A DNA stretch of 64,000 nt from Tribonema minus (Eukaryota > Sar > Xanthophyceae > Tribonematales > Tribonemataceae). The position numbers were made by a program, and so were the translations under genes. Positions 16,700 to 37,500 of the stretch are shown one piece after another (positions within the stretch are counted from its first letter, which is position 1; each line of letters opens with the position of its first letter). The stretch covers positions 248,001 to 312,000 of the forward strand of contig JAFCMP010000081.1 of NCBI GenBank assembly GCA_017506865.1, in the 5' to 3' direction. Below the pieces are notes generated by a model that did not search any database, had not been told where the DNA came from, and worked only from the letters and a program-made list of their open reading frames with translations.

Positions 16700-18417
16700 G
16701 GCTTCTGCAGCGGCACAAAACACATGCAGTGGACGAGGTGTGCATGTTGACAAATGCCGCTCGGCGAAGAAGCTACAGTTTCAGCAGGAACTTGATTACG
16801 CGCAAAGACGAAGATGCATGCGCTCGCAAGCGGAACGCAACGCAGCACAGGGCACCTCTTCTCTACTCACCTGAGCTTGCGCCGCACTACGCTGCTGGAA
16901 GTGAGCGAAACAGAAACAGATTGAAGTGCAAAACTTGAACCTCAACTTCCGCGTTTTGTATGAGCCTGGTTTTCCGTTCCCACACGTGCATGTATGTGGG
17001 CAGCCTGCGGTACTGATCCCTACTCCTCGTGACGAAAGCTATACATGTGTCACAACAGTGAGCTGTGGGCAGAAGAGATCATTCATATCAGGTCGGCACT
17101 ATTTAAAGAGCCTCCCATCAAGGGGGTCTTGCTCCCATGGCCATTGCATGATCCGTGCTCGCTATTAAGATGCATCAAGGGCATGACCTGCTTCTTCTGT
17201 GTTCAGGGTTTGACCGGAGTTTACTTTGACTTGGATCTGGACATGTCAGCTGCGCGCTCTGATGATGTTTGCAGGCTCCCATGGTTTATTGCCATGTACG
17301 CATCGACAGCCAGCCATGCCATACTGTGCCGACGTTGAAACTGGTACACATTTTAAAACTAAGAACATGGCAGAGCGGCGCTCTCATATGCGCGCATGTG
17401 CTCAATGTGTGGCAGGGTTGACAAGCTGCTGCCAGGCAGCAGCGCGCTGACACCCCTCTTCAGCTGCCGCGCTGCCGTTGCCCGCCTCCGGCACTGAGTG
17501 CAAAAAAAGAAGCATAGACGCACACACAAACGTGCAAGTCATGCTAGCGGCAGTGTTGTCACGCTCACAAGCACAAGTGCACAGACACAGTAGGTGCTGC
17601 CCGCGTCAGAAGTGAATAATCTTATTCAATCGCAGAAGCCAACAGATGCTCAAAGACTTGCAAGACACTTGAGGTGGTCTTCCCGATGCAGCGCTCGCCC
17701 CATTTATGCATTGCTTAGCTTAAGAGCTGCAAACTCGCGCAGTTCTCAATTAGACCACTAACGTTTGTGGCACCAAGCACTTGACATGTTGATGCATGTA
17801 CTTACCAGCACTGTATGCATACATACTCAAGCATCACCGCAGTCAAGCCACACAATATACGACCTTCCTCCTAGCTGTCCTCCTTCTACTTGCTTGCTCC
17901 GTTAAATCACTGAACCTAACATTTCCCTTCGCGCTGACCTGACTTTGCCTGGATCGCAATGCCCCCCCCCCCCCCCCCCCCACCTGTGGATACCCTGCGC
18001 CCCACTAGGACAACATATTGAGGCGCCTGGCATGAGCTTACCAGTCAACCCTCTGTTAACTGCTGCTACCTTACATTGGGGCCATCACTTGCGGACCCTG
18101 CGCCTGCCTTTGTACAACAAAGCTGTAGGCGACATGGCTTGTTACGCATCCTTCCTGGCGCAGCGCAGGCACAAACCCATCTTTGACCCGCTGCAGCCTG
18201 TCGCGAGCATGCTACCGTCGGCACCGCCACCACTAGCCAGTCGCTGTGTCAACTTGTCAACTGCCTGATGGGCTTTTGTGTTGCTGCACTGGCCGCTGCG
18301 GCTCATGCACTTTTGACGCGTACATACATCCTCGCAGCACCCCCTCCTAACTGATCCTGTTGTGAAGTCTGCTGGAGCATGCACAGTGCGCCGCGGCAGC
18401 GCGCACAGCAGCAGCGC
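16700..18417. other. Intergenic region
   Basis: Lies upstream of the plastid-protein gene and downstream of the Smr-domain stop codon. It contains a poly-C tract at about 17960-17979. Short open frames on both strands look random. No gene, RNA or transposon is recognised. Confidence 0.6.
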
Positions 18418-21400
18418 TCAGGTCTGTCGGAGTTGCCGCAGCTGCAGCGCGCCCGCATTGCCGGGCACGGGCTCCCATGCAAGGTTGATCTCCGCCAGGT
18501 GCGCCTTGACGCTCTCGCGCAGCGCACACTGGCCGGGGACCGCGGAGTGCGCGCCGCGCCCCGTCACGAGCACGATTCCGCCGCCGCCGCCGATCAGCAC
18601 GCCCGCGATCGGCGCCACAAACTCGCTGACGATACGGCACGCCTCCTCGGGCGTGAGGCCATGCAAGTCGACGTACGCAACGTCGCTCGCGCCGCTGCCG
18701 CCGCTGCTGCCGCGCCCGGTGGCGGCGCCGGCGGCGACGCCCATGCGGCCCACCGCGTTCATGCTGGCATAGATGTCAGTGGCGGCGTTGACGCGGGCCT
18801 CTTCGAGCCGCGCGCTCACCGCAGCGCGGCGGCGCAGCGCTGCCGCATGCTGCGCATCCGTTGCTGCTGCCGCCGACTGCGTCTCCGCCTTGCGCAGGTC
18901 CTGCTGCAGCGCGCGCACGGGGCGGCGCGCGAGCTCGTAGATGGCCTGCGAGCGCAGCAGCAGCGCTCAGTGAGAATGAGCACCGTGTGGCGCCGACAAT
19001 GCCTACTCCTGCTCCGTGCAGGGCTGCTTGAAGTCTGAAAGCGGGCGATGTCAGCCGCTCTGTGAAGGCGCTGCAAGCACTCACAGGCGGCTTGCAGCAG
19101 GTGGAGCACTGCAACAGCGGCGGGAAGCAGATCATGCATGTGCGTGTGTCTGCGCGCTATTTGGCGTTGATCACACCCCGTGTGAAGTCAGAGGGTCCAG
19201 TGCATCATGTGCAATCATGGAATTGACGGCTTTCCATGATACCATGTGGGACATCAGCGAGCCGATGGGATGAGAGCCATTGACACTGACATGTTGACTG
19301 TGCTGCATGTAAATGCAGAGGCAGCGGTGTCTTGCACGCACACAACGTTGCGCTATACACTGCAAGTACTTCTGTAGACACCTGAAGGTCTTTCAAGGTA
19401 AGCTGTTTGCGGCGTCATCAGCAGCGAAACCACCGAACTCTGTGATGACTTACACGTGTGTGGGGTCAAAGGACATCTTTGAGCAGGCACTTGCTGGTGA
19501 TGATGCTCATCTGATGCGGGCTGGTGGCGATGCTCAGTTGCCTCACTTCTTCTAGCTTAATTAGCCGTGTGCAGTGCTCAACAGATTAGGCACAAACTTG
19601 CGTGGTACAGTAGCTCTGATAGACTTCAAATAGGGTTAGAGTTAGGATTAGAGCTAGGGTTAGGGCTAGTCCTACCTTACTGGCTAGTTGCTAACTGGTA
19701 AGGGTTAGGGTAAGTAAGTCCTACTTTGCTAGCTAGGGCTAACGCTAACCCTAATCTAACCTCGAGTACAAGTCTGACTGCACTTGAACCCGTCATAGCC
19801 TGGCACTGAGTCAGGGAACCTCACCTGCTTGTCTTCCGTCCCGAGGTGGCGCGCGCGCGGATCGTAGGACACCAGCCCCACCATCTCGAATAGCACGTTC
19901 TGCACCTTGGCGATGTCAAAGCTGTGTGTAACGAGCAGCTTCTCCACCAGCAGCAGGCACTGCAGGTTGCGCGCACCATCGTCGCCCTCCCCCCTGTGCC
20001 GCACCTGCAGCCTGCAGACGACGGTGCGGAGGCAAAGTTCAGTGCCAGTCAGCTACCGCAACGCAAGGCGGTGGCACGTGACACAATGCGTCGCGCCCAC
20101 ACCCCGCACACACTCCTTGCATTGTAATCCTTTCCCGAGCAGTCTTCACAGCCGGCCACGTTGCTCCTGAATTCAGCTCTAATACTAAGTCATGCCTCTT
20201 ACTGATGGCCACTGTACTTCGACTTCAACTCCAGCTCTAACCCTGATTATCGCCCCTCATTAGCCTACCAACTTGGTGGTGACTCTCCCCTCTCAGGTAC
20301 CAACCCCCCCTTCTCACCTACTCGCCAGCATGGTCAGCCCGCTGGTGAGCGCCCCCGTGCGCAGCAGCTCCTTTGCCAGGTTGCTCGGCAGCTGGCGCGA
20401 CAGCGGCTTGCGGCACAGCGCGCAGCAGAAGCGCATGCACGTGCCATCATCCTCCTCCTCCGAGTCCAGCGCCTCGCGCGACGCGCGCCACTGGCTCGTA
20501 AGGCAGCAGAGGCACGCGGCGTGGCCGCACTGCAGGACGACGGCGAGGCGGTCCGCCAGCTCTGACCAGGCCGTTCTGCAGATCTGAGACCAAGCGTGCA
20601 GGGGGAAAGTGGGGGGGGGGGGGTTAGGGGGAGATGCATGAAGGTTGAACTTCGCATGGCTGAAATGGGCGCTGCTGAGTCGCCGTGGTTCATGGACGTT
20701 GAATCGAGCCGTGCAGCCCGTTTGCAACACGCTCGTGCCAAGTAAAGACATGTTGTCAAGCATTTCTCTAAGACACGATATGACTGCAAGCGTGCCACGA
20801 CGTGCGCCGGCTGCCACCTGGTGTGCTGACCGTCTCTCTCCATGGAGCCGTCTGTCATGCACACATACATACACGTGAGTGCATACATCCAAACAGAATT
20901 CAGGCTCAGGTCGCCCCGCAGCGCACAAGCAATGTCGTGGTCAGGATTGGGGCTCAGCGGCCGCCAACGCACCGGGCAATGCTGGTAGTCCCTGTCCACA
21001 AACCCCATGTCGTGTGCAGCGTCCACGCAGATCCCCGCCTCCACCACCTGATCGCATGTCAAGATTGTCGCCCCCAGACTCTCCGCCGCAGCCTCGCCGT
21101 GGCTGCTGTGCAGGCCCGCGGAACGCTCTGCTTGGCCTCGGCCGCCGCCGCCACCGCTGCCGCCGCCGCCCGCACCGCCCCCAGAGCCGCTCCGCCGCGC
21201 TTGCCGCCCGCTGCGCTTCTGCCGGCGCTTGCGCTCCGCGCTGCCGCCGCCGCCGCCGCCGCCAGGTGCAGCGGCGATGCACCATTCACTGAGATCACGC
21301 GCTGCGGCATCAGTGCGGCCGCTGGAGTGTGGCGCCGCCGCTGCGCTCTCCTCCGCCGCAGCAGGCGCGGGAGCTGCGCAAGGTGGCGTGTCTTTGTCGC

Positions 21401-24400
21401 TGTCTCTGTCGCCAGCATTACCCCCTGTCCGCCCCTGCATGCTGCCCCTCCGCGGCCTGCGGCGCGCTGCTGTCGACGGCAGATGCGGCGGAGCATCGCA
21501 ATGTGCAGAGGCGCCGGGGGCAGCAGCGCGCGCTGCCTCGTCGGCCTGCATATCGAGCCCCTCCTCGTGGAACGCCTGCACGCGTGTGATAACCGTGTCC
21601 TTGTCGTTGTACTCGGCAAACGTCGAGGCGCTGCGATACAGCAACATCTCGTAGCCCTCGGCCATCTGGCGCAGCTGCTCCAACGACTCCGGGGGCACGT
21701 TCGCCATGCTCTGATGTGCCAACCGCCAGCGCCGCTGAGCTTCCATGAAGATGCGCGCAATGTTCCGCGTGCGATGCGGCGCGTCGTTTTCTGACCGCCA
21801 CCTGCCTGTCACCTGCGCCAATGCTGCCTTGCCCATTTGATCTGCAAGAACTGCCTGGCGCGATAACTGTTGCGGCAGCGCAGTGACAGCAGACACGCCG
21901 CTGCCGCCGGGAGCGCTGTCCCCGGCGGCAGCGGCAGGGACAATGTGGCTGGGCGCAGGTATCGGAGCATCGCTACGTGCAAAGACGCCGGGGGCAGCAG
22001 CGTACGCTGCCTCGTCGGCCTGCATCTTGAGCTGCTCCTCGTGCACCGCCTCCACGCGTGTGTGCAGCGTATCCGTGTCGTTGTACTCGGCAAACGACGC
22101 GGCGTTACGATACAGCAACGGCTCGTAGGCCTCAGACGTCCGGCGCAGCTGCGCCATCACCTCCGGGGCCAGGTTCGCCCTGCTCTGATGTGCCGACCGC
22201 CAGCGCCGCTGAGCTTCCATGATGATGCGCGCAAGGATCCTCCTGCGATGCGGCGCGTCGTTTTCTGACCGCCACCTGCCTATCACCTGCGCCGCTGCCG
22301 CTGCCGCAGACACTCCATCTGCAACTGCTGCCGGGACTGATGACATGAGCCGCAGCGCAGTGACAGCACTGGCAGTCACGTCCGACTCGCTGCTGCCAAG
22401 AGCGTCATCGGCGGCAGCAGCAGCGGGGACGGTGTGGTTGGAAGCAGGTGCTGGAGGTTTGCGCGACAAACCGCTAGGCGACCCGTCGCTGCCGCTGCCG
22501 CCGTCACCAGCATACTCCGTTGTGCGCCCCTGCATGCTGCCCCTCTGCGGCCTGCGGCGCGCTGCCGCTGCAGGCGATGACCCGTCCTTGTCGCTGTCGC
22601 TATTGCTTTCACCAGCGTAGCTGTCGCTGGCACCAGCAAAACTCTCTGTCTGCTCCTGCATGCTCCCAGCGGTGACAGCGGCACCGCTGGCAGCGGCGGC
22701 GGCGGCGGCGCCGACGGCAGCAGCTGCCTCGCCTTGCCGCTGGAGCAATTTATCGATGGCCTGGCGTACGGGCACGCAGAGGGCGCACTCGTGGTCCTCG
22801 CAGCATTGGTAGTGGCTTAAGACGGATCTGAAGCGGATGAAGGGGAAGTTCGGGGGGGGGCAGTGGTCCAGCACAGCGAGATCGAGGGGGGCATTAGAGC
22901 AGCACAGTGGAGAGGGGGGGGGGGGGGGGGGGGGGGGTCAAACGAATGTGCAGTGACGGCGAGTGCTGCGGTCTGCAGTGCAGCATAGCGTTCAGGAAGT
23001 CTGAGTGCTGAGCACAGGTTTCTCGCAGCTGCCGGTGCCGCCGCTGAGAGGTGTGTGACGAGTACTTGCTATACAGTGTGACACCTGTTTGGAGACTGAG
23101 CTCACAACTAATGTGTCCTCAAAGTCTGGTTTGCGCGACCGTGCCTCAACTGTTGGGATTGTGACGCCGCCCCCACCCTCGAACAGCGATGGTTTGACGA
23201 ATATACGGCGCACACATGCATGTTGTTGGAGCATATGGCAGTTACATGCTCATTGCCGTTTGCAGGCTTGACGGTTACGGCAGCTACAATTGCCAGTAGA
23301 CAGACTACAATACATTCACTTCTAGCAGCACACGACTGGCGTCGGCCTTCTGTTGCATTTCCCCTTGGTGTCTAGCTCTGCGGGTGTGGTGCAACAGGGT
23401 AGTAAGCAGCAGCTCTCTACGTTGCAACACATGCATGATGCGAAGAATGTAAATTCGTATGCATGTATGCGCCAAGGCGCCAACGCAAAACTGGAGTGGT
23501 CACAACGCGACCGCTACAAGCAGGTCATACGCAGGATGCAGATGCATGCACATCTAAGGGTCAGGGTAAGGCTGACTGTGACCCTATCCGTTGGTGCTAC
23601 TGACTGGTCGCTTGTGTACATAGGGCTACCACCAACTTGAAGCCTGGTAGCGTGGCTCAACTCCGCCCGCACGTACGCTGTCAGCAGCTGACACAGCGTG
23701 CCATATGGGTGCTGGGCCCCTGAGCGTTGCTGCGCTGTCTGCTTAATGGCGGATTTGATGACAGCACGCACCAAACACCAGCGATAAGTCCGCAAAGCAC
23801 GGTCCTGAGCTGTGACTGACGGCCATGCCCTGATCCTGCCAGTATGTAAGACTCAACAGCACATGCTTGCAACATGCGCTGGCGCTCACCTCATGCTAAT
23901 CTATAGATATAGCCACAACTCTTACTCTGCTACATGCAGGCAGCACATCAGGATGCGCACGTGCACCAACCCTGCAAGCTTGCCCGATGCAAAGCCCTAA
24001 GTAGACCTAGCGCCACGCACCTGAGGCTGACACAGTGCGGCACGGTGCACATCTGCACCTTGCACTGAACGATGTGCTGCCAGAGCGTCTTCAGCTTGGC
24101 GCAGTGCTGCGTCACCTGGCACTTGCCCTCCTCAGAGGAGCAGTTGCTCACATGCCACATTAGCAGCAGCCCCTGCTGCTGCTGTTGCAGCACCGCCATT
24201 CGCTGCTCCTGCGTGTACTCGGGTGTCTGCGCGCCGCTGCTGCCGCCGTCACCGCCGCTGCAGTGCGCTGCCGCAGCCGCGGCTGCCCTCAGCAGTGCAG
24301 ACAGGGCACTCGCGTGCGCCGCAGCGGCAGTAGTGCCACAAGACCGCTCTGCAGCGGATGAAGGGGGGGACGGGGGGGGGGTCAGTAGACCACCACAGTG

Positions 24401-26096
24401 ATTGAGGGGCACAGTAAGGCAGCACAGTGAAACAGGTGGTGTCACACCAATGCGCACTGACGACGGAGGCTGCAGCAGTGCTCGGCGAATGGGGGGGCAC
24501 CTCAGCGCTGGTCACAGGCTTTCGATTCACGACTGCCAGTGGTGTCGGTGGCCTGCGAGCCCCCGACGTCAATTGGTTTGCAGAGGGGCGACAGGACCTC
24601 CAAGTTGCAGACATGAATCACTTCAAGCAGGGGCCTTCACTCAAAGTCTCTGCCACGGATTTTGCTGACAGCGGTCGGCTTGTTGGGAGGTGTGTGACAG
24701 TTGTCTACCTACTGCGCAGTGTGAACAGTATTTGCGGACTACTGTAGGCTCACAACTGATGCATCCTCTTGATGCTGGCGACATGCGCTGGCGATCACCC
24801 CCTACATGAACAGGCGGCAGCCTGCTGCGAGCAACGTTGCGAGCATGACCAATGCAAACAGTTCATCCTAGCTTTGCAGCACACACCTGGAGCTGTCGCA
24901 GTGCGGCATGGTGCACGCCTGCCTCTTGCACTGAATGGCGTTCAGCAGGAGCTTCTTCGTGTTGGCGCAGTGCGACGTCGCCTGGCACTTTCCCGCCTCC
25001 GCGAAGCAATTGCTCGCGTGATGCAGCAGCAGCAGCAGCAGCAGCAGCCGCTGCAGCTGGTGCAGCAGCTGCTGCTGGTGCGACTGCGCCGTCTGCTGCT
25101 GCTTGCGCTGCTCCCGCATGCACTCAGGCGTGAGCCCGTCGCCGCCGCAGTGCGCTGCAGCAGCCGCAGCGCCGCCAGCTGCCGTCCCCTCAGCGCTGCC
25201 TTCCACCTTCCCATTGGCCGCGTCGCCATGGCCACTGATGCTCATCATGGACGCGTTGACTGCGAGTCCGCCCGCTGCCGCTGCCGCCGCATCCGCCGGC
25301 TGCACCGCCAGCTGCTGCCCCTTGACGTGCCTGCCAGTGGTCAGGTCGGCGCCCGCGGCGGCACCAGCAGCAGCCGGCACGTTTTCGGGCTGGCACATGT
25401 CCAGCGGCGCAGGGGAGCCGTTTCCACAGGCGGGGTCACAAGTGCCGACTGCAGCCGCCGCCATCGGCGCGGCGGTGGCGACGGCGCTGTGTGCGGCGAC
25501 GCCCTCGACCTGGCTGCCCTGCAGCTCGGCTGGCTGTGCCTCGTTGCCGAGGAACTGCGCCAGCTGCGACACTTGTGTGAACAGCGTGTCCGCATTGCTG
25601 TACTCAGCCAATGTCGCTGCGCCACGGTAGCGCTCGCTCTCGAGGCGCCAAGCCGTGAGCGGCAGGTTCTTGATCCACTCGGGCGCGCATTCGGCTCGCG
25701 CTGCTGCAGGTGCACGGCGATGCGCGAGAGGATTCACTTGCGGAGCGGCGCGTCGTTCTCTGACCGCCACGCGCCGGTCACGTGCACCAATGCTGGTGCC
25801 GCAGCCGTTTCATCTGCAGCCGCGTCTGCAGCCGCTGCCTGCAGCGATGATTGTGGCAGCAGCGCAGAGACGGCAGGCACGTCGCTGCCGAGAGCGCCGT
25901 CCGCGTTAACAGCGGCAGGGACGATGTGGTCGAGCGGCGGTGCCTCCGGCGCTGCCAGCACTGGCTTGTTCTCCTGCCCCTTCACTGCATGCTTCACCGC
26001 AATTTGTTTCGTGGCGGCTTTCGTAAATGATGCGGAGTTCACCGTCTGCAGCGGTGTGCGCGCCCGGCGTGGACCAACTGCCAAACTGACGTTAGC
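18418..26096 (-). CDS. TAZ - KIX - KIX - RING - DUF1771/Smr protein
   Basis: Intact exons: TAZ 24348-24021 and 22827-20973, RING 20583-20318, linker 20011-19825, Smr 18945-18418. From Met at 24199 they give exactly 1004 codons plus stop. The TAZ zinc finger (about residues 1-85) has H-x3-C clusters: WHVSNC, QHIVQCKVQMCTVPHC, then SHYQCCEDHECALC across a splice. KIX-like domains at about 241-331 and 398-489 share GRWRSENDAP, YE.LLYR and AEYND. The splice at 20973/20583 joins HCP to ICRTAW, making a RING CPIC start; LQCGHAACLCC and CCALCRKPL follow. The last exon has DIYASMNAV, DLHGLTPEEACRIV and VLVTGRGAHS, i.e. DUF1771 plus Smr. TAZ and KIX bind transcription-factor tails, RING recruits E2 enzymes, and Smr domains bind or cut nucleic acid; a chromatin or RNA-linked ubiquitin ligase is inference. 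The upstream exon 26096-24887 is damaged, so the true start is unsure. Confidence 0.8.
19627..19758. repeat. Degenerate telomere-like TTAGGG/CCCTAA cluster
   Basis: Within the intron between linker and Smr exons: AGGGTTAGAGTTAGGATTAG, GCTAGGGTTAGGGCTAG, GGTAAGGGTTAGGGTAAG and, inverted, CTAACCCTAATCTAACC. Units are mutated and change orientation. Confidence 0.7.
24249..26096 (-). pseudogene. Decayed upstream KIX-TAZ unit of the same gene
   Basis: Exon 26096-24887 codes a HIVPAA leader, a KIX-like domain and the first part of a TAZ finger; 24348-24290 codes the second part (RAVLWHYCRCGARECPVC). Splice positions and phase equal those of the intact TAZ. It has three defects: a TGA at 25736-25734 directly after WRSENDAPLRK, a frameshift inside the same KIX (the AECAPEWIKNL part is in another frame), and a one-base frame conflict after CPVCTA near 24290. 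In addition the second zinc cluster reads LLNAIQC, with Asn where the ligand His should be. All damage lies in this unit. It may be a dying duplicate, or partly sequence error. Acceptor CTGCAG|GCTAAC precedes 26096, so an earlier exon existed. Confidence 0.6.
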
Positions 26097-27094: not shown

Positions 27095-30000
27095 TCATGA
27101 CAAGTGCTGTCGCCAGCCGCCGCCGCCGACGGGCACGCGCGACGCGGCGGCGCCGCCGCGCCCCACCATGAGCCCCGCCATATTGGCGCCAGACGCGAGA
27201 CTCGCGCCGCCGCCGCCGCCACCAGCCTTACTGCCGATGGTCTGGCTCGAACCGTACGGCCCGCCGCCCATGTGCGCGCGGCCGTTGCTCATGTCGTAAA
27301 CGGTGCGCGTCTTCTTCTTGCGCTTCGGTTCCGCGCCGGCGGCGGCGGCGGCGGCCGCGGCGGCGCTTACCGCCGCCAGCGAGGGGTCTGTAGAACCGTA
27401 CATGCCCCCCGCTCTGCCGCCGCCGCCGTTGGCGGCGCCGCCGGCGGCGGCGCCTCTGTTGGCGTTGTTGCCGCGCCCGAGGATGCCCATGATGGGCGGC
27501 AGCGCGCTCTCATCTTCCGATGGACCTGCGGGGTGGCGTGAGCACGACCGTAGGCAGTGCTCAGAAACCTATCAGCAATGACCAGTGGCTTGGGCTGTGG
27601 CGACTAAATGCGCAGCTGCGCATGCGTGGATGGCGAGGACCCTGCGCGTGTGGCGCATTGCGCTGCCGTCGCGATCTGCGGGCGGCCACGTGCTGCCGTA
27701 ATGCATTGATTGCTCGGGGGGGCTTGCGCCTGTGCCTCTAGGGGATCTGGCAAGGTCAGGTTGGCAACCCTCAGCAATTGAGCTCTTTCAGGAAGCAGCA
27801 TCAAGCAACAACAGTGGAAGAAGTGACAGGCTAGATCAGGCGCCTGGAGGCGCATTTGTGACCTTTCAAGCTAACTCCAACCCTAACCCTAACCCTAACC
27901 CTAACTCTAACCCTTACCCTAACCCTAAGCAGGAGGTGTGGTGACCCACTTCACAATGCTTTATGAAGGCAGGTACAAGGTGGCTTTCAGTGTTGCACAA
28001 GGTGCATGCACGCATGGCCTCACGAGTTTCAAGCCTGCAGCCACCAAGAGAAGCACTTTGGTTGTGCCAGTGAAATAGCCATGCTCACCAGTACCGCACA
28101 CCATTCCGCCAGCTTCGAGCGTAGGCTAAGATCACCCTCCTGTGGTATGCGTCAAGTGCCACCAGACGCAGCATCAGGGCGCTCGCATGCATGTACGATA
28201 GCGCACCACCGTACGTCACGTGGCCTCTACAGCGACTTGGATCTTATTCAAAGAGTTCAAGTCTTGCTTGCCCAAAGCGCCAACAGGCATGTCCCCGTGA
28301 CTCGCACAAATTGCCGCTTCATGCCCGCAAGACCCAGAATCTCACCTGCACTGGCGTTAACGTGCCCGGCGCCTTGCAACTTCAACTTCAACAGAAGTGC
28401 TTCGACTTCAACAGAAGTGGCACCGCAGCAGTACGGGACGCTCAGAAAGTTTGCGAATAGGCACACTGCGTCTCGAGGCGCTCGAAGTTCCAGCCGCATC
28501 ATGCGTGCCACATGGTTGCACTCAGAAACCCCACATGCTTCATTGAATGCGCCCATGGAAGCCACCTGCGCTTGTTGCCGCCTCGTTGTGAGCTGAAGCA
28601 AAGCAACATGCCTTATGTTGAACTTCAACTTGCCTTTTTGCACCGCTCCTCGCCCCGCAAGCAACGATGCCTTGTAGTGCACGTCCCCCGCTGCCCCAGC
28701 CGCATTACCACCGTGCAATTGATACTGCGCTGCCGCCGCCGCCCCGCCGCCGCTCGCGTCCTGCTTCCCTGCATGGCCAACTGCGAGAGGGATTGGTGGC
28801 AGCAGCGCACACTGTTGAACAACACTGTCACTTCGACGTACACGGGATTATCGTCAGAATAAAGTTGCGTTTTGGCTCAGCGTTACGGTCGGAGGTAGGA
28901 GAGGAGGAATGAGGCAGCAGTGCTCACGCAACAGCACGGAGACATGATGCAACACGCTGTCGAATCCAGCGCACGCGCAAATGCCCAATCCTGACCCTGA
29001 TCCTCACAGGGTGCGTGTTGGCCAAGAGGGCGCCTGCCCCGACGCCGCCCGCACACTAACGCACCCAACTTGCGCGTCCCGCTCAGTGCCGTGTGCGGCA
29101 CCTAGCCCCGACCCTGACCCTACGGCGGGTGCGCATGTTGTGGTTGCGCCAGATCGCGCATCACATCGCAAGAAGCTGCGCGCGCCACGGAGATGAGTTC
29201 GCATGCCACCACGGGCCACAGCGCCACGAGGGCCGCGCGCACGCAGAATTACGCCGCGTCAACCGCTTCCCCTGCGCTGCCATCGCGTCCTCCCTGCCCC
29301 TACGGGCGCCCGGCGTCATCGACGTTCACGCTGCCACCAGGTGCTGTACAACGCTCACCAGGGGACCCTGCATGCGCTAGGCGTGTGCGCGCCCATTGCG
29401 AGACACAGCGCTATAGGAAGGTCGCCGAGCGTGCACCGGCGCCGAAGCGCCCGGCGCGGCCGCCGCCAGCATCTGCCTCCTCCGCAGACCTCCGTGACGC
29501 GCACATGCCGCGCAGGTTCTGTCCGCTGCAGCTGCAGCAGTGCTCAGTGCATGCGCAGCAGCGCTACGTCGCTGGAGGCACCTGGCACGGGCTGCGGCAG
29601 CCTGCGACTGCCCTGCCGCCAGGCTTGAGACTCTCTCTCTTGCAGCTCAGACCGGGCGTCGCAGGCGCGCGCATGCTCACGGCGGCGGCGCGAGGCGCGG
29701 CGACCGGCGCCGCGCAGCGCGCTGCCCAGGCTCCACAGAGGACTCAGTATTCATGTCGCAGTGTCATCGCCACAGCGCGCTCCATTACATACATACCTGC
29801 AAACGCGCCAGCCTTCATGACGCGCGAGCTCCGCCGCGGCGCGCCGCTGAACCGCCCGCCGCCCGCCCCCGCGCCGCCGCCGCCCGCCGCCGCCGCAGCC
29901 GCCGCCGCCGCAGCGCCGCCGCCGCCGTGCTGCTGCCCTATCGTTGGCAGCGCCTTGCTGATGGTCGGCTGCGGCGGCGTCGCGGGCTTCGTAACGCGCG

Positions 30001-32848
30001 CGTTTGTGCCGTGTGAGCGCTGTGACCGGTCCGTCAGCGCTCCGTTGGCGACGGCGGACGCGGCGTTCGCCGCCGCGGCGGCACGCGCGGAGATCGCGCC
30101 CAGGCCGCCGCCGCCGCCGCCGCCGCCCGGTGCTGCCGGCGCCGCGTTGCCGCCCTGCTGCGAGCACGCGCCAGAGGCGTCGTCCAGTGAGCGTGTGGCT
30201 GTGCCACGACATGATGTGCAAACCTATTGCACGTGAAGTAGGGCGCACTGCAGCTGCGCTGCTGCCGCTGCGGCGCCGCACGACGTTGATGCTGCATGCT
30301 CAGCTCCTCGCCTGCGGCAACAGCGTACGTCCTCCTCTCAGCGACCATTGCGAGTGCCCTGATGCTGCTGCAGCGCCGCCACTGCCGCTGCCGCTTCAAG
30401 CACAGCGCGGGCACCCGCGGCAGCGGGCTCGGCGTGTCCAGGTTGCCTAACCCTAACCCTAACCCTGACCCTGACCCTGTGCCGGCGTCACATCGTGTCG
30501 CACCACAGGCCAGCGGCGGCTCACCACGACATTGGCCGCAACCAGCGCTGCCGTGCGGGCTCTCGGCCACCACTATGATGTGAGCTCCGCACGCATCATG
30601 CCGCTGCCGCCGCCGCCGCCGCCGTCGCGGCAGGCGGCAGCCGTCATCTGGTGGCAGCGCTCTGCGTGTGCGGCTCCGCATCTCTTTCGAGGGGTGCGCG
30701 ATTGAGCACCCTGTGTGCACATGCAGGGCCAGGCATGAGTCCATCCTGTGACCTATTTCTCGCCCTGCCAGAGCTGTCTTGCAGAGTGCGCCGATGCGGC
30801 ATCGCGCAGCTCCCTGTGTCCACGGGCACAGCGCCAGCTGCGCCAGCAGCGGTTGCAGCGGCAGCGCTCCGCTTCTCGCACAGCGCGACTCGCCCTGACC
30901 TAACTCATATCCTACTACAACTGCCGCACTACCACTGAAACCGCTATCGCGAGCGCGCCGCTCACCTCGTCCGCGGGCGCGGCGGCGGCGCCCGTAGCAG
31001 CAGCGCTCCGCCCATCCAGCTTCCGCATGTGTTTGAGTGCATGCGCCACAGGGCGACAAGCCCTGACCATAACCCCAGTCCTACTGCAACTGCATCACCG
31101 CCGCCGACTCCGCCATTGCAAAGGCGCGCAGCTCACGTTGTCCGCAGGCGCGCCACCAACGGCAGCGCCGGCGCCGGCGGCAGCAGCGCTCCGCGTGCCC
31201 CGCTCCCGCATCTCCTTGAGCGCATGTGCCACAGCGCGACTAGCCCTGACCCCAACCCCGGTCCTACTACAACTGCTCACCGTCATCGCAACAGCGCGGC
31301 GCTCACCTTGTCCGTGGGGGCAGCGGCGGCGCCGGCAACACCCGCGGCAGCGCTTCGCGCGTCCAGCTCCCGCATCTCCTTGAAGTACGGGTGCCGCAGC
31401 GCCTCGCGCGCCGTCATGCGCTCGCCCCAGTCGTAGCACAGCAGCTTGGTGATGAGGTCGACGCACTCCGCGCTGCCGTGCGGTATGAGCTGCGCGACGC
31501 CGATGCCCTTCTGCGGCGGGAAGTCGAAGTTGACGTGCGCGGCGCCGTTGCGCTTGAACTTGGCCAGGACGTCGTCCGGCGGCGTGCCGAGGACCTGCGG
31601 GGGCGCGCGCGCGCGGCGACAGCGGTCAGCAGTTGGTGCTGATGCTCAGCGAGATAAACAATGGTGTGAGCCGCTTTGGAACACAGACAGCTATTGCATC
31701 GCGTGCAGCGTATCTGAGGGGGGGGGGCAGTATGGGGGGGGAGGGCAGCGGCAGCGGCCCTAAACCAAGCTGGAAGTTGATGATCAAGAATGTATGCATG
31801 GTGCGCTGCTGCACCATGATGATGAGCAGGCCACGCCGCACGGTGACATTGGGGCTAGCACGCGTGCCCACGATCGTGCTCGCTGCCTGTTCGCAAGGCC
31901 TTCTGCCTCTCATCACATGCGGCCAGACACCGCACGTCTCAGCATAAGCACGGAAGGTACAGCCCGGGGCACATTGCTCATGCAATCGCCCGCTGGCGCG
32001 CGCTGCGAGCCCATGATACCCCCACTACATACCCAACAACATCTATAGCCCAGCCAGCATCAACTCCGTCGCTCCGAGCGACAGAGCGCACGACGCGCTA
32101 TGCGCCACACGCGCGCTCGTGCGTCGCCAACACGGCACGCGCCCCCCCCCTCTCCGAGCGCTAAGCGCTGACGCGGCACACTCGCCTTGTGCACGCGGTT
32201 GATCTGGTCCAGCTCGTTGGTCCCCGGGAACAGCGGGTACAGGCTGGTGATCTCAAAGAACACGCAGCCCGCGCCCCACAGATCCATCTCCGGCCCGTAG
32301 TAGCCGTCCGTCAGCAGGCACTCCGGCGCGCGGTACCAGCGCGTGCTGATGTACTCCGTGTACGGCTGCTTGGAGTAGATGCCCCTGCAGGAGCCGAAGT
32401 CCGCGAGCTTGAGGCCCCGGCGCACCTCGCTCGTGGACTCTATGAGGATGTTCTCCGGCTTAATGTCGCGGTGGAAGATGCCCTTGCGGTGCATGTGGTC
32501 CAGCGCCTTGAGCAGCTGGTACATGTAGCTCCTCACCAGCTGGTCGCTGAGGTAGTGCCGCCTCCCCCGTATCAGCTCGTACAGGTTGGCATCCATGAGC
32601 TCGAAGACGAGGGCCAGCCGGCCCGTGGGCTGGTCATAGAGCACCTCCTCCAGGGTGATGATGTGCTGGTTGGGGCTGAGCCTCCTGAGTGCCTGAATTT
32701 CCCTCAAATTGTTCACCTGATCTATCGAGTCAAATCTGTTCTTCATGCACTTGATGGCATAGTATTTACCGTCTTTTACATTTTGGGCCTTGAGGACCTC
32801 GGAGAAGGTCCCCTCCCCCTTCTTCGCCACCAGCCTGTACTTGCGCAT
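27095..32848 (-). CDS. MOK: MOK/LF4-type MAP-kinase-related protein kinase
   Basis: Exons 32848-32186, 31594-31307, 30157-29797 and 27525-27095 give exactly 580 codons plus stop. The kinase domain fills residues 1 to about 300: glycine loop GEGTFSEV (11-18), YYAIKCMK, HRDIKPEN, DFGSCRG, the TEY activation motif in QPYTEYISTRWYRAPE, and NELDQINRVHK|VLGTPPDDVL across the first splice. Those motifs are diagnostic for MOK rather than other RCK kinases. In algae the orthologue LF4 limits flagellar length; that role is inferred here. The low-complexity tail holds KALPTIGQQ, KRKKKTRTVYDMSNG and long Ala/Gly runs; its splice to the last exon is supported by phase (G|GT). Intron 1 starts with a GC donor (AAG|GCGAGT). 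The start at 32848 matches family length; an in-frame ATG also exists at 32917. Confidence 0.92.
27526..29796 (-). other. MOK intron 3 (2.3 kb)
   Basis: Contains a CCCTAA run at 27871-27929 and CTTCAA-type repeats at 28376-28410. A possible degraded copy of the exon 30157-29797 start lies near 28680-28720 (minus reading GGNAAGAAG). No other gene is recognised within it. Confidence 0.5.
27871..27929. repeat. Telomere-like (CCCTAA)n tract
   Basis: About nine CCCTAA-type units with a few changes, inside MOK intron 3. It is the longest such tract in the window. Confidence 0.85.
30800..31216 (-). repeat. Tandem ~170-bp copies of MOK exon 2 end plus donor
   Basis: The true donor is at 31306. Diverged copies of the preceding ~80 exon bases (GAGATGCGGGAGC, AGCGCTGC, GCGGACAA|GTGAGC-like) end at about 31136, 30965 and 30814, i.e. 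steps of 170, 171 and ~151 bp. Intron words such as CCCTGACCCCAACCC and TCCTACTACAACTGC are copied with them. The first two copies still have GTGAGC; the third has lost it. Confidence 0.88.
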
Positions 32849-34515
32849 CGCTGCCAGCGGCGAGAGTGTTGGTGTGCGTGCCGCTGCGGCCGCTGGTCCC
32901 TCAACATGCCCTTCCAATACAACCGCTGTGTGGGGTCATCAGGGGCTGGTGTGCAGGCAGTGAGTGGTGCAGCAGCAGCAACGGATGGTCGCTTAACAGG
33001 ATGCACCGTCTTCCTCACGCGCACACCCTGCTACAGCACCTTGGCTTGCGCAATTCCTCCAGATATTAGTGCTTCTTCTCCGCATTTGTGATGTGACAGT
33101 TACATCAACAGGAGAGAAGCGCCCCAGAAGGCGGAATGGCGGGCGCAAAGCATACACATATTTTTTTTTGCGCAGCATTACTTGCATACGCCCAAAGGCT
33201 GCATGCATGCTGAGTAGGGCACAGTCAACAATCATTAACTGGCACAGCGGGGTCTGCATCAATGCAATCTCAATGGCGCCTGCCAGTCAGCTCTGATGTG
33301 GGCGATGGGACATCGCAGCTGCTCACCAGCACCGGCATACTGACACAGTAGCAGAGTCTGATGGCAGACATACGTCGACGAAACTGTGCCGATGCATCCT
33401 CTGTGATTGTATATCTACAAAGAAAAGTTTGACAGATCCAAGTTCAAGTGGCGTACAAGAAAGACACGCGCATGCATACATGCCCGATGACTTGAACAAG
33501 CGTCGTTCACCATTGCAGCGTTGAATAAGCGAATGTCGCTCGGTCAGCACCAGTGAATGCTGTTGTGCGCTCTTCTACATTAAAGAGAGCACAGCAACGT
33601 CCACATGTGTCCGTGTGCGTACCAGCAGCACTGCAATTGCTTCCATCACGCCAGCCTCGCCGAGCAACGCGGCCGGTGAGTTTGTGTCTGTCCCGTCTGG
33701 CTCAGTCCGCACCACCACGTCTGATCAAACCAATACCAGCAGCGTCAGCCAGAGCGCCTGGAAGAATCCAAGGTCACCTCGCGCGACCACCGCCGCAGAC
33801 GGTCCAATAGGCGACGTCTGTGAGATGGTTGCAAGGTGGGGCGTCACCGGTGGTACTCCGATGATGAGCAGCCACCGCTGCCACTGCCGTTGTGGCTGTC
33901 GCTGCGGCGCCACACGCGCAGTTGCGATTGACCAAATCATTGCCATTCGATTGCAGGCTGGTGTGTGTGTGGCCACGCTGTCTGCGCCGACGACTTCTGC
34001 ATGTATGGCGGCCGGAGGTAGGCATGAGCTTCAGTCTGCCGCCGCGTGCTGCCCAGCCACCGCACAAGCCGCATTGGCAGTATCCGTGACAGCAGTGGCG
34101 GCGGCCGCAGACATGTAGGCTGATGTAGCAGCAAACTGCGCCAACGGAGGTGTGCAGACGCCTGCATGGCAACAACGATGCCGGCGGCAGCGCTACTGTA
34201 GTAGCCCGCCCAGACATCACACAGGCATGGGGCCGCATTGATGCACGCCGCATCGACTTCACCAACACAGCCAACCTGCCCCTTTAAATTGTGCAGCTGC
34301 AGTGGGGTGCGGCCGGACCGCGAGGCAGCAGCCCTCAGCACTCAATGGTGCCGCAGCTGTGCCCCGCGCAGCAGTGGTGCAGGCGTACGCGCCCAGCGCG
34401 GAATGGCCATCGACCCTGTGCGCCGCCTCAAGGCGCAGCACATGCTTTGTCTGCGACGCTTGCATGAGCTGCCGCTGCCCGTGGTAAAAAAAGATGCTGA
34501 CAGAATCTCTTCTCT
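32849..34515. other. Interval between METTL22 stop and MOK start
   Basis: Holds the presumed MOK promoter and 5' UTR. A T9 tract lies at about 33162. Long overlapping frames on both strands at 33600-34340 lack splice-consistent or homologous content. Nothing else is recognised. Confidence 0.5.
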
Positions 34516-37500
34516 TCACCGCCGCCAGATCTCCCACAGCTCCATCTGCGGCGTCCGCACATACGACGCAAAGTGCTGCGCGAACGTCAGCGGCAGCCGC
34601 CGCCCCTCAAACTCCGGCCGCACTGCAGCAGCACCCGTCACCCCACACGAGCGCTGCTGCTGCTGCTGCTGCGAGGGCTGCTCCGCCGCGTCCATCATTC
34701 CGCATGAGACCTGCGGCAGCGGCAGCGGCGGCGACCTACGTGGCTCCTGCTGCGCGACGCCAGCGGCGTCGACGTCGCGCACGCGCGCCAGCATGGCCCT
34801 GTAGCCTGTAGCCACAACGCTCAGCTCTTCAAGCGAGAAGTTGAAGCGCTTCTCGAGCGCCAGCAGGACAACCGGGCTCCGCCGCGCGTCCCGCACACCC
34901 GCACCTGCTGCTGCTGCCGCTGCTGCTGCCGCTGCCGCTGCTGCCGCTGCTGCTGCTGCGGGTGGCGGCGGCAGCAGCAGCGCGAGCGTGTCGAACAGCG
35001 CCGAGACCGCGTCCTCGTCATATACGACGTCGCTCGCGAGCACCACGTCCAGCGTGCGCAGGTCACGCAGCTCCTCGGCGCGCCAGTGGAAGGGCGCGCG
35101 CGCGCCGCCGAAGCCCGGGCCTCCAAGCGTCGCCGCCGACACTTGGAACCAGTCCAAGCGGCGCGCACGCGCCACGGGGCTGCACTGCTGCTCTGGATAA
35201 TGCAGATGCTGCTGCTGCTGCTGCTGCGCGTTGTCGCCGCTGTTGTCACAAGGCGTCTGCTGCTGTTGCGCGTTGTCACCGCTGCAGTCACAAGGCGTCT
35301 GTGCGTTTGTCTCTGCGGTGCCGGCGCTCGCGGAATCGTTGCGGAAGAGGTGGCGGTTCGCCTCGACGTTGCGCTCCACAAGGTGCAGGACCTGCGGCAT
35401 CCAAGGGCAGGGCAAAGGTGGATTGTTATCAAGAGGGTCAGGGTTGCAAGTAGATTGATTACATTGTGCGCATGCTGAACAGGTGTTCAGCGTGCGCTGG
35501 GTCCAGCAATACTAATCCTGACCTAACCTCAATCCTAATTTGACCTTAGACAACACAGAGGGGCAGGGCGCATATGCAGCACCAAAGCATCTGAGACCCG
35601 TTGTAACTGCACCGTACGACCAGCGTACGGGCCGGCAGTCTTGCGCAAGCTGCCCCCTACAGGGCAGACCGCATTGCGGGCCAGGTGCGTTGCGATGCGC
35701 AATGGCGCGCGATGCGCAGGCAACTGTTACAAGCAAGCGGCAGCCCTGATCTGTTGCGACCTGCGTTGCCATGAGGGCGCAGCGCCCAGATGCCATGAGT
35801 GCGCAGCGCTCAGTGCTATGCGTGCACAGCGCAGTGCGCAGGTGCCATGAGGGCACAGCGCTCAGGTGGTATAAGTGCACAGTGATCAGGCGCTACAGTG
35901 CACAGTGCTCAGGTGTCGAGTGTGCAGCGCTCAGGCGCTATGTGTACACAGCGTTCACTCGTCACACGTGCACAACGCTCAGAGCGCGCAGCATTCAGGC
36001 ACTACTCAGCGCTCAGGCACTGCGCGTGCACAGTGCTCAAAGTGCCATGAAACGCGCAGCGCTCAGACGCCTGAGTGCACAGCGCTCAGGTCCTCCACAC
36101 CGTCGCAGCGCTCACCTCCTCTGGCCCATCGGTGAGGAAGCAACGGCGCGCCACGCGAGCCATGATGATCCCTGCGACCCCTGGCCCGCTGCCCACTTCC
36201 AGCGCCTGCAGCATCGCTCGCCACAAGCAGCAGCGCTCAGCCTTAGCAGACATTGTAGTCAGATTGCGCGTCATACGCGCGCATTGACTTCGTCATGCAA
36301 AAGAGCGCTGGTGCGGAGCTTGAGGCCAGATGGCACCAGAGAGCGCACTGGAGTCGTGCTTGAGGGTGAATATAAAGGTTAAGGTCAGGGCAAGTCATGC
36401 TAGAGGCAGGTGGCTTTGGAGCGCCACTAGTGTGCTGCCCACTTCCAAAGCCTGCAGCAGCGCTCGTCACAGCCAGCAGCGCTCAGCCTCAGCAGACATG
36501 CAGTCGGGCCGCGTAATACTCATTGACTGCATCGCGCAAGAGAGCGCATGTGCGAAGCTCAAGGACAGGTGGCGTCAGAAAGCGAGCTGGAGTCATGCTT
36601 TAGTGCAGATGGCTTTGTGCCGTCACCAGTGTTCGCACACAGGATGGCATGCTAATGCGATCGCGCATTGCAGTTATGCTGGGTTGGGTTGCCCTTTCGC
36701 ACACAACAGATTGATAGCAGCAGACAACTTAGCATTGCATCAGCGAGCTTCGCTACGGGACAAATGCTGGTGTGTCTTGATGCGCACATGCAGTAGTAGT
36801 GCCAACAGTGTTCGAGAAAGAGGTCTGGCGTTGTTTAAACAATTGCAGGCACATGTACCTGGCGCAAACATCTCTGCTGCACGTTCTTGAGTATCAACCG
36901 TAATGAGGCCATCTATGAGCAATGCGCTAGTCGCTTTAAGCTTCACCACTGCACATTGTTGCTGCTTCGAGCCATGCATCTCAGCATGCAACTCTGCCAT
37001 TTCGATTGGGCAGGAGACAATGGTGCGTTAAAGCTAGACTGTGCCCATGCCATAATGCCATCATGGCTGGTGCGGGTTTAAATACTGTATCTGAAAACGC
37101 ATTCGACCTGACTGTACTTCAAATTAGAGCTGCACAATTGCCGCGATGGTGTTGATATCAGGGCAGAAAATCCTCTGCTCATGGCAGTATGACAATGATG
37201 ACATGAATATCTGAGCTGTATTGGTCGCTTTTGCAAAGTGCAGGTTTTTAGTGGAACCGGCAGCGCGGTAGGCCGGCAGGTGTGATCAACGATACCTATC
37301 CTCTGGTGGTTCACCGCAGCTGGCTCACCACACAATCCCTGAAGCGCTCTTGGTGAGCCAACAGGTAGTCGGCCAGAAGAAAGGCGCCAGACCACACCTG
37401 CAGCCCCACCAACTTCAGAGGAGTGGCGAGTGAATGGGCGATGGTAAGAGACTCTCGCGAGCCATCGCCGGTCGTGTACGAGAATCGACTCCTGCCCGTT

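Follow-up and report, generated by a model that had tools for sequence, protein, structure and literature searches.

Introduction

Does a single gene of the alga Tribonema minus (Xanthophyceae) join the TAZ and KIX modules of CBP/p300 coactivators to a RING finger and an Smr domain, and, if so, where do its parts come from? The question is raised by a locus on contig JAFCMP010000081.1 (C81). The whole stretch of DNA analyzed, hereafter the window, comprises 64,000 nucleotides (positions 248001–312000 of the contig), and the genome searched amounts to 158 Mb in 554 contigs. From the letters alone, an initial annotation had described on the minus strand of the window a TAZ-KIX-KIX-RING-DUF1771/Smr protein, possibly an E3 ligase that the tails of transcription factors recruit. 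Our analysis partly confirms the observation and partly supports the interpretation; the chimeric origin of the gene, a broken KIX–TAZ copy upstream of it, and the existence of a separate RING-Smr family had been overlooked.

The locus is a chimeric gene. Its 5′ part is of the type found in CBP/HAC coactivators, and its 3′ part is of the RING-Smr type carried by another contig of the same genome, C99. The explanation that best accounts for the whole, which we hold tentatively and at somewhat less than even confidence, is that this chimera encodes a putative TAZ-KIX-KIX-RING-Smr protein acting as a competitor or a brake of a coactivator.

The Reading Frame and Its Domains

Five minus-strand exons (24199–24021, 22827–20973, 20583–20318, 20011–19825, and 18945–18418) form a frame of 1004 codons with zero stops, and all four splices, 24021/22827 included, are GT-AG. 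The three splices named in the initial annotation (20973/20583, 20318/20011, and 19825/18945) are also GT-AG at the equivalent places in paralogs on contigs C22 and C99. Exon 2 (20973..22827) is open over its 1855 nt and belongs to a frame of 867 codons, the longest stop-to-stop frame within the window. TAZ and two KIX domains had been placed together in one long exon. Both KIX domains are in exon 2, but the TAZ domain is split by an intron (22828..24020).

This TAZ domain (TAZ-B) begins in exon 1 (24021..24199), where Met 24199 precedes zinc sites 1 and 2, as judged from Pfam zf-TAZ and from homology to a TAZ exon of contig C113. Its third zinc site opens exon 2 (22827-22776). Over residues 8–77 it matches zf-TAZ above the cut-off (1.2e-12), and in the PDB it matches TAZ1 of CBP (1l8c, 5.7e-11). 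At the ligand positions of TAZ domains, 12/12 zinc ligands are kept (hypergeometric 0.003 for 52/80 residues identical to C113). Exon 2 then carries KIX 2 (22044..22280), KIX 3 (21570..21806), a basic/Gly linker, and the first Cys pair of the RING. Pfam KIX_2 is found in two stretches of the protein (3.1e-7; 30.6 bits for a cut-off of 25.6), the one at residues 401-469 falling in KIX 3. The latter is a tandem copy of KIX 2 (repeat family D2), and the duplication, with its spacing of 474 nt, keeps the frame. A profile built on six other KIX domains of the T. minus genome and run on the window frames of at least 40 amino acids (E 0.01) matched only KIX 2 and KIX 3 (1e-19 and 1e-15) and two frames of a broken third KIX. 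TAZ and KIX domains bind activation domains.

In the 3′ half, the junction HCP|IC is exact and restores the RING motif, just as first described. Exon 3 (20318..20583) holds the remainder of the C3HC4 RING, down to about 20413. The full C3HC4 ligand set is present with the usual spacing, and the eight ligands are invariant in two five-protein alignments that have only the window protein in common. By sequence, the first Cys pair of this RING contains Ile, its second loop contains Trp, and an Arg follows its last Cys; RING domains bind E2 enzymes, and these three positions matter in known RINGs. Exon 4 (19825..20011) corresponds to a helical middle region on which Pfam is silent in the window protein, one relative giving a weak HBS1_N match. 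Finally, exon 5 (18418..18945) encodes DUF1771-like helices (18945-18757), an Smr domain of the family-2 type (18675-18421), and the stop (18418-18420). In the predicted structure of a relative (P0003), the Smr fold is seen, preceded by a long helical hairpin.

In the same two alignments, the Smr motif DxHG is invariant at D and H, and the Smr motif TGxG at T and at both G residues. LDXH and TGXG are given as family-2 Smr motifs in a passage of PMC3200294; the window protein has VDLH, where V replaces L, and TGRG. According to passages of PMC6598757, mRNA within collided ribosomes is the substrate that the Cue2 Smr domain cuts, and residues D348, H350, and R402 matter for this. By alignment, the window Smr has counterparts of all three residues. 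A profile search of the PDB returned the Smr domain of N4BP2 (4.1e-7) and, more weakly, RINGs such as that of RNF4 (5.4e-5). The identity of the predicted RING and Smr domains is thus supported by the family alignments, the N4BP2 profile match and, for Smr, the modeled fold of a relative.

A separate observation concerns the introns. Runs of C stand where pyrimidine tracts are expected before several 3′ splice sites (around 22907-22937, 22852-22860, 24363-24380, and 20611-20623), and also in C99.

Origin of the Two Halves

Contigs C113 and, less closely, C549 carry a KIX domain followed by a TAZ domain whose intron sits where the TAZ intron of C81 does; the C22 copy shares this intron position. 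On C113 and C549, HAT_KAT11 matches follow KIX-TAZ in the same orientation at a distance of about 6 kb, and both genes are, from their sequences, CBP/HAC-type coactivators. None of the 28 HAT_KAT11 matches in the genome is on C81. At the DNA level, C113 is 83.6% identical to the C81 TAZ exon over 250 bp (24012–24261); further alignments cover 25814–26066 (70%), 24880–25785 (72%), 22669–22830 (73%), and two short KIX pieces.

Two side observations bear on the wider KIX repertoire. Between 733 and 793 kb of C113 (loci L024, L026-L028, L030, L031, L035, and L036), KIX-coding frames are clustered on both strands around the CBP/HAC-type gene, and some of them begin with much alike N-terminal sequences, which indicates a local expansion of KIX genes. 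At 248-251 kb of contig C23 (L007), a KIX + TAZ gene occurs on a contig that has no HAT_KAT11 match; it is another possible TAZ-KIX protein devoid of acetyltransferase.

The 3′ half has its counterpart on C99, where RING, middle exon, and DUF1771-like/Smr exon follow each other with the same splices, downstream of a long low-complexity frame. No TAZ or KIX match occurs on contig C99. Its alignment with C81 covers only 21379–18390 and hence includes the linker (20973..21379), which is homologous to the C99 gene; on this alignment, the chimera junction lies 5′ of that linker. RING-Smr genes or proteins devoid of TAZ and KIX are also found on Tribonema contigs C179 and C144, in JKP88DRAFT_241238, in the chytrid protein HK104_011380, and in P0003 and P0005; contig C527, with six-frame matches, probably holds one more. 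The RING-Smr proteins, found in stramenopiles and a chytrid, are a distinct family, and TAZ and KIX are an addition to it.

Several blocks of C22, covering introns as well as exons, align with positions 18038–26558 of C81, with 73–86% identity in the main blocks. TAZ matches occur on at least 13 contigs and RING–Smr matches on at least nine; among the matches listed, C81 and C22 are the sole overlap. C22 carries the whole fused arrangement, and the joining therefore predates the C81/C22 duplication. Of the initial interpretation, the domain order TAZ-KIX-KIX-RING-Smr is supported. The sister copy is available in the databases as a single protein (P0001, JKP88DRAFT_285427), which contains KIX, RING, and Smr and is 94% identical over 98% of the RING–Smr half. 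C22 encodes pieces of this protein at 100%; the deposited model skips the places where the C22 frame changes and shows no TAZ by Pfam. Like TAZ-B of C81, the TAZ of C22 keeps 12 zinc ligands (hypergeometric 0.011, given 56/79 identities). Three protein searches were made, each with at most 8,000 candidates scored (lengths of 552–1757, 196–625, and about 195–620 amino acids). Only the first could return a fused protein, and its single match was JKP88DRAFT_285427.

The history that we favor is as follows. Before the C81/C22 duplication, the front segment of a CBP/HAC-type coactivator gene, with KIX followed by the intron-split TAZ, was fused in frame to a C99-type gene for RING, DUF1771-like helices, and Smr. 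Afterwards, KIX was amplified and, in C81, the TAZ part was tandemly duplicated. The most upstream KIX-TAZ copy then decayed in C81, leaving TAZ-KIX-KIX-RING-Smr open.

The Degraded Upstream Copy

The space upstream of Met 24199 had been taken to be free. It is occupied, at 24297-26096, by a degraded KIX and a second TAZ. KIX 1 and the first part of this TAZ-A (24883..26096, minus strand) show ACG where C22 has ATG, an in-frame TGA, a one-base frame change, and the loss of one zinc His. The second part of TAZ-A (24297..24346, minus strand) is out of frame with TAZ-B. Use of an alternative donor at 24883, two bases further, is a possibility; it gives a longer frame, but the second half of TAZ-A is then read out of frame. 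With C113 as outgroup, the TAZ-A branch has zero synonymous and 21 nonsynonymous changes (four unplaced). We note that such a 0/21 count (24880-25096) is more one-sided than plain decay suggests. As for the gene model, the 1004 codons from Met 24199 do form a frame without a stop. That Met as start codon is unproven, however, and doubtful, because a broken KIX–TAZ copy with a lost start, a stop, and a frame change stands upstream.

Selection and Competing Explanations

Between C81 and C22, the RING–Smr half has a dN of 0.031 and a dS of 0.212 (NG86), that is, a ratio of nonsynonymous to synonymous rates (dN/dS) of 0.15, with 333/354 residues alike. With C99 as outgroup, 25 synonymous and 12 nonsynonymous codon changes fall on the C81 branch, 19 and 9 on the C22 branch, three synonymous changes being unplaced. 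These values point to strong purifying selection on RING–Smr.

Several observations weigh against a translated TAZ-KIX-KIX-RING-Smr protein. C81 has lost the ancestral start, and the putative exon between 26096 and Met 24199 contains 13 ATGs (19 with the intron). TAZ and KIX evolve fast, with dN/dS values from 0.28 to 3.1 over 48 pairs; the ratio is 0.58 and 0.50 for the two exon parts of TAZ-B compared with C22, and 1.59 for KIX 2 compared with KIX 3. Frame-shifting gaps between C81 and C22 number 5–6 in 744 positions from the end of TAZ to KIX 2, three in 497 in the linker stretch, and two in 171 in the first TAZ-B exon. The frame of C22 changes at four places (KIX 1, the stretch from TAZ to the KIX array, the last KIX, and immediately upstream of the RING), and the Arg after the last RING cysteine is lost in C22 (R86H). 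No deposited protein of the C81 locus was found in the three length-limited searches. Finally, of the domains initially assigned, zf-TAZ and KIX_2 exceed the Pfam cut-offs, but RING (4e-4; zf-RING_UBOX, 20.7 bits vs. 25.2) and Smr (0.005) remain under the curated ones, and DUF1771 has no match in the window protein.

A serious rival, though an unlikely one, is that translation yields the RING-Smr part alone, beginning at a Met within the long exon (in the linker, for instance), the TAZ/KIX DNA being an untranslated or non-functional leftover of a coactivator. The contrast between strong purifying selection on RING-Smr and weak selection on TAZ/KIX speaks for it, as do the frame-shifting gaps in the TAZ/KIX DNA, the 13 upstream ATGs, the broken KIX frame of C22, and the very existence on C99 of a RING-Smr gene free of TAZ and KIX. 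Against it, the 513 TAZ–KIX–KIX codons of C81 have no stop and are in phase with the RING, where neutral drift would likely have placed one. Intron divergence between C81 and C22 is 0.156–0.236 (Jukes–Cantor), hence about 0.08–0.12 per branch. In a neutral simulation of the 513 codons (1000 runs), 3.6-4.3 stops are expected at 0.08-0.1 substitutions/site, with 2.7-1.4% of the runs stop-free; at 0.05 substitutions/site, 8.7% are. The in-frame KIX duplication (474 nt) and the 12/12 TAZ zinc ligands also count against it, and in C22 the frame in which the RING starts has no Met in the linker upstream.

Introns show 20–27 frame-shifting gaps per kb, more than the TAZ/KIX coding DNA, and exons 3 and 5 show zero over 788 positions. 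Since the C81 frame is open, the gaps found in the TAZ/KIX DNA lie on the C22 side or are mutually offset. On the TAZ-B branch, five synonymous and 11 nonsynonymous changes are placed when C113 serves as outgroup, nine nonsynonymous ones being unplaced; the presumed functional CBP/HAC-type pair C113–C549 itself has a dN/dS of 0.60–0.68. Our reading, on evidence weaker than that for RING–Smr, is that selection keeps the TAZ/KIX frame of C81 open and that its residues are loosely constrained.

It is also a serious, if rather improbable, alternative that both fused copies are recent pseudogenes early in decay, the long open stretch of C81 being due to chance. In the 5′ copy of C81, the loss of the start, the TGA, the frame changes, and the missing zinc ligand suggest such decay, as do the four frame changes and R86H of C22 and the 0 vs. 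21 changes on the TAZ-A branch. However, after the split, the C81 branch shows purifying selection on RING-Smr (25 synonymous, 12 nonsynonymous), and the frame runs from Met 24199 to its end without a stop or frame change, across four GT-AG splices.

A third alternative, compatible with our preferred explanation, is that the broken frames of C22 and of the 5′ copy of C81 are assembly errors concealing longer KIX-TAZ-(TAZ)-KIX(n)-RING-Smr proteins. It fits the one-base differences, flanked by frames resembling the relatives, wherever individual bases were compared (KIX 1 of C81, KIX 1 of C22, and before the RING in C22). We nevertheless consider it improbable: the RING-Smr exons of C81, C22, and C99 align without any frame change, the CBP/HAC-type KIX/TAZ exons have none either, the ATG to ACG change, the TGA, and the zinc-ligand loss in C81 are substitutions, and the TAZ-A/TAZ-B frame offset sits at a duplication junction.

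Possible Function

Under the preferred explanation, that of a chimeric coactivator competitor, transcription-factor-binding modules would have been captured by a RING–Smr protein. TAZ and KIX would bind activation domains that normally recruit a CBP/HAC-type acetyltransferase, and a RING E3 ligase together with a nucleic-acid-binding or -cutting Smr domain would be brought to the same factors, or to nascent RNA at their sites. The fused protein would then compete with the coactivator for activation domains, or brake it. Recruitment of an E3 ligase by transcription-factor tails, as initially proposed, is an interpretation in keeping with the conserved key residues of known RINGs and Smr nucleases. 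If the gene is expressed, the capture of the recruitment half of a coactivator by a ubiquitin-ligase/nuclease-like protein would represent a new control route at CBP-type sites, and the fusion may send a ligase and nucleic-acid-cutting machinery to active genes.

A more specific proposal, which we consider improbable, is that CBP-type readers of activation domains are here naturally fused to an N4BP2-like Smr effector and a RING, as a gene-targeted factor ubiquitinating and cutting nucleic acid at sites of CBP-dependent transcription. A passage of PMC5663922, which credits Watanabe (2003), names N4BP2 among the proteins that bind p300/CBP. If the proposal were true, one polypeptide would unite what is reported in humans as a link between two proteins, p300 and N4BP2, and the RING-Smr family would be a single-chain counterpart of the pair formed by Hel2 (E3) and Cue2 (Smr nuclease). 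Apart from this proposal, the chimera, if expressed, also suggests that the binding reported between human N4BP2 and p300/CBP may reflect a wider functional link. The RING-Smr family itself, with an E3-like domain and Smr on one chain, is a candidate for a ribosome-collision or transcript-surveillance factor.

Surroundings of the Gene

Degenerate telomere-like repeats (CCCTAA/TTAGGG type) occur inside an intron (19632-19678) and upstream of the gene (27868-27914). Two neighboring minus-strand genes encode a protein kinase (32064-32935; Pkinase, 7e-55) and a lysine methyltransferase-like protein (34520-35511; Methyltransf_16, 8e-6).

Comparison With Known Systems

The literature was searched by term, most subscription papers lying outside its reach. 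Within this scope, no TAZ-KIX-RING-Smr protein was found described, and neither Smr domain, RING, and N4BP2 nor B3BP, p300, and Smr gave a match. Smr domain, RING finger, and endonuclease matched only on GIY-YIG nucleases, and the passages returned for Smr domain, ubiquitin ligase, and domain architecture showed no such protein.

With CBP/p300 and plant-type HAC proteins, the window gene shares TAZ1, KIX_2, and the TAZ intron position of the Tribonema CBP/HAC-type genes; it differs in having RING-Smr where they have the acetyltransferase, no HAT_KAT11 match being found on C81. Compared with the family-2 Smr proteins N4BP2/B3BP and yeast Cue2, the window protein has no CUE or kinase domain by Pfam and carries RING and TAZ/KIX on the same chain. 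With its RING-Smr relatives, it aligns at the eight RING ligands and at the D, H, and TGxG of Smr, but their N-termini are of another kind, low-complexity in C99 and a Sel1 repeat in the chytrid protein HK104_011380. Plant BTB-TAZ (BT) proteins are BTB/CUL3 adaptors. They are not known to have RING-Smr or KIX, and the likeness lies in a TAZ domain placed in a ubiquitin-ligase context, as described in a passage of PMC13075204. Because TAZ in a ubiquitin-ligase setting has this plant precedent, the fusion is best called a new combination of known parts.

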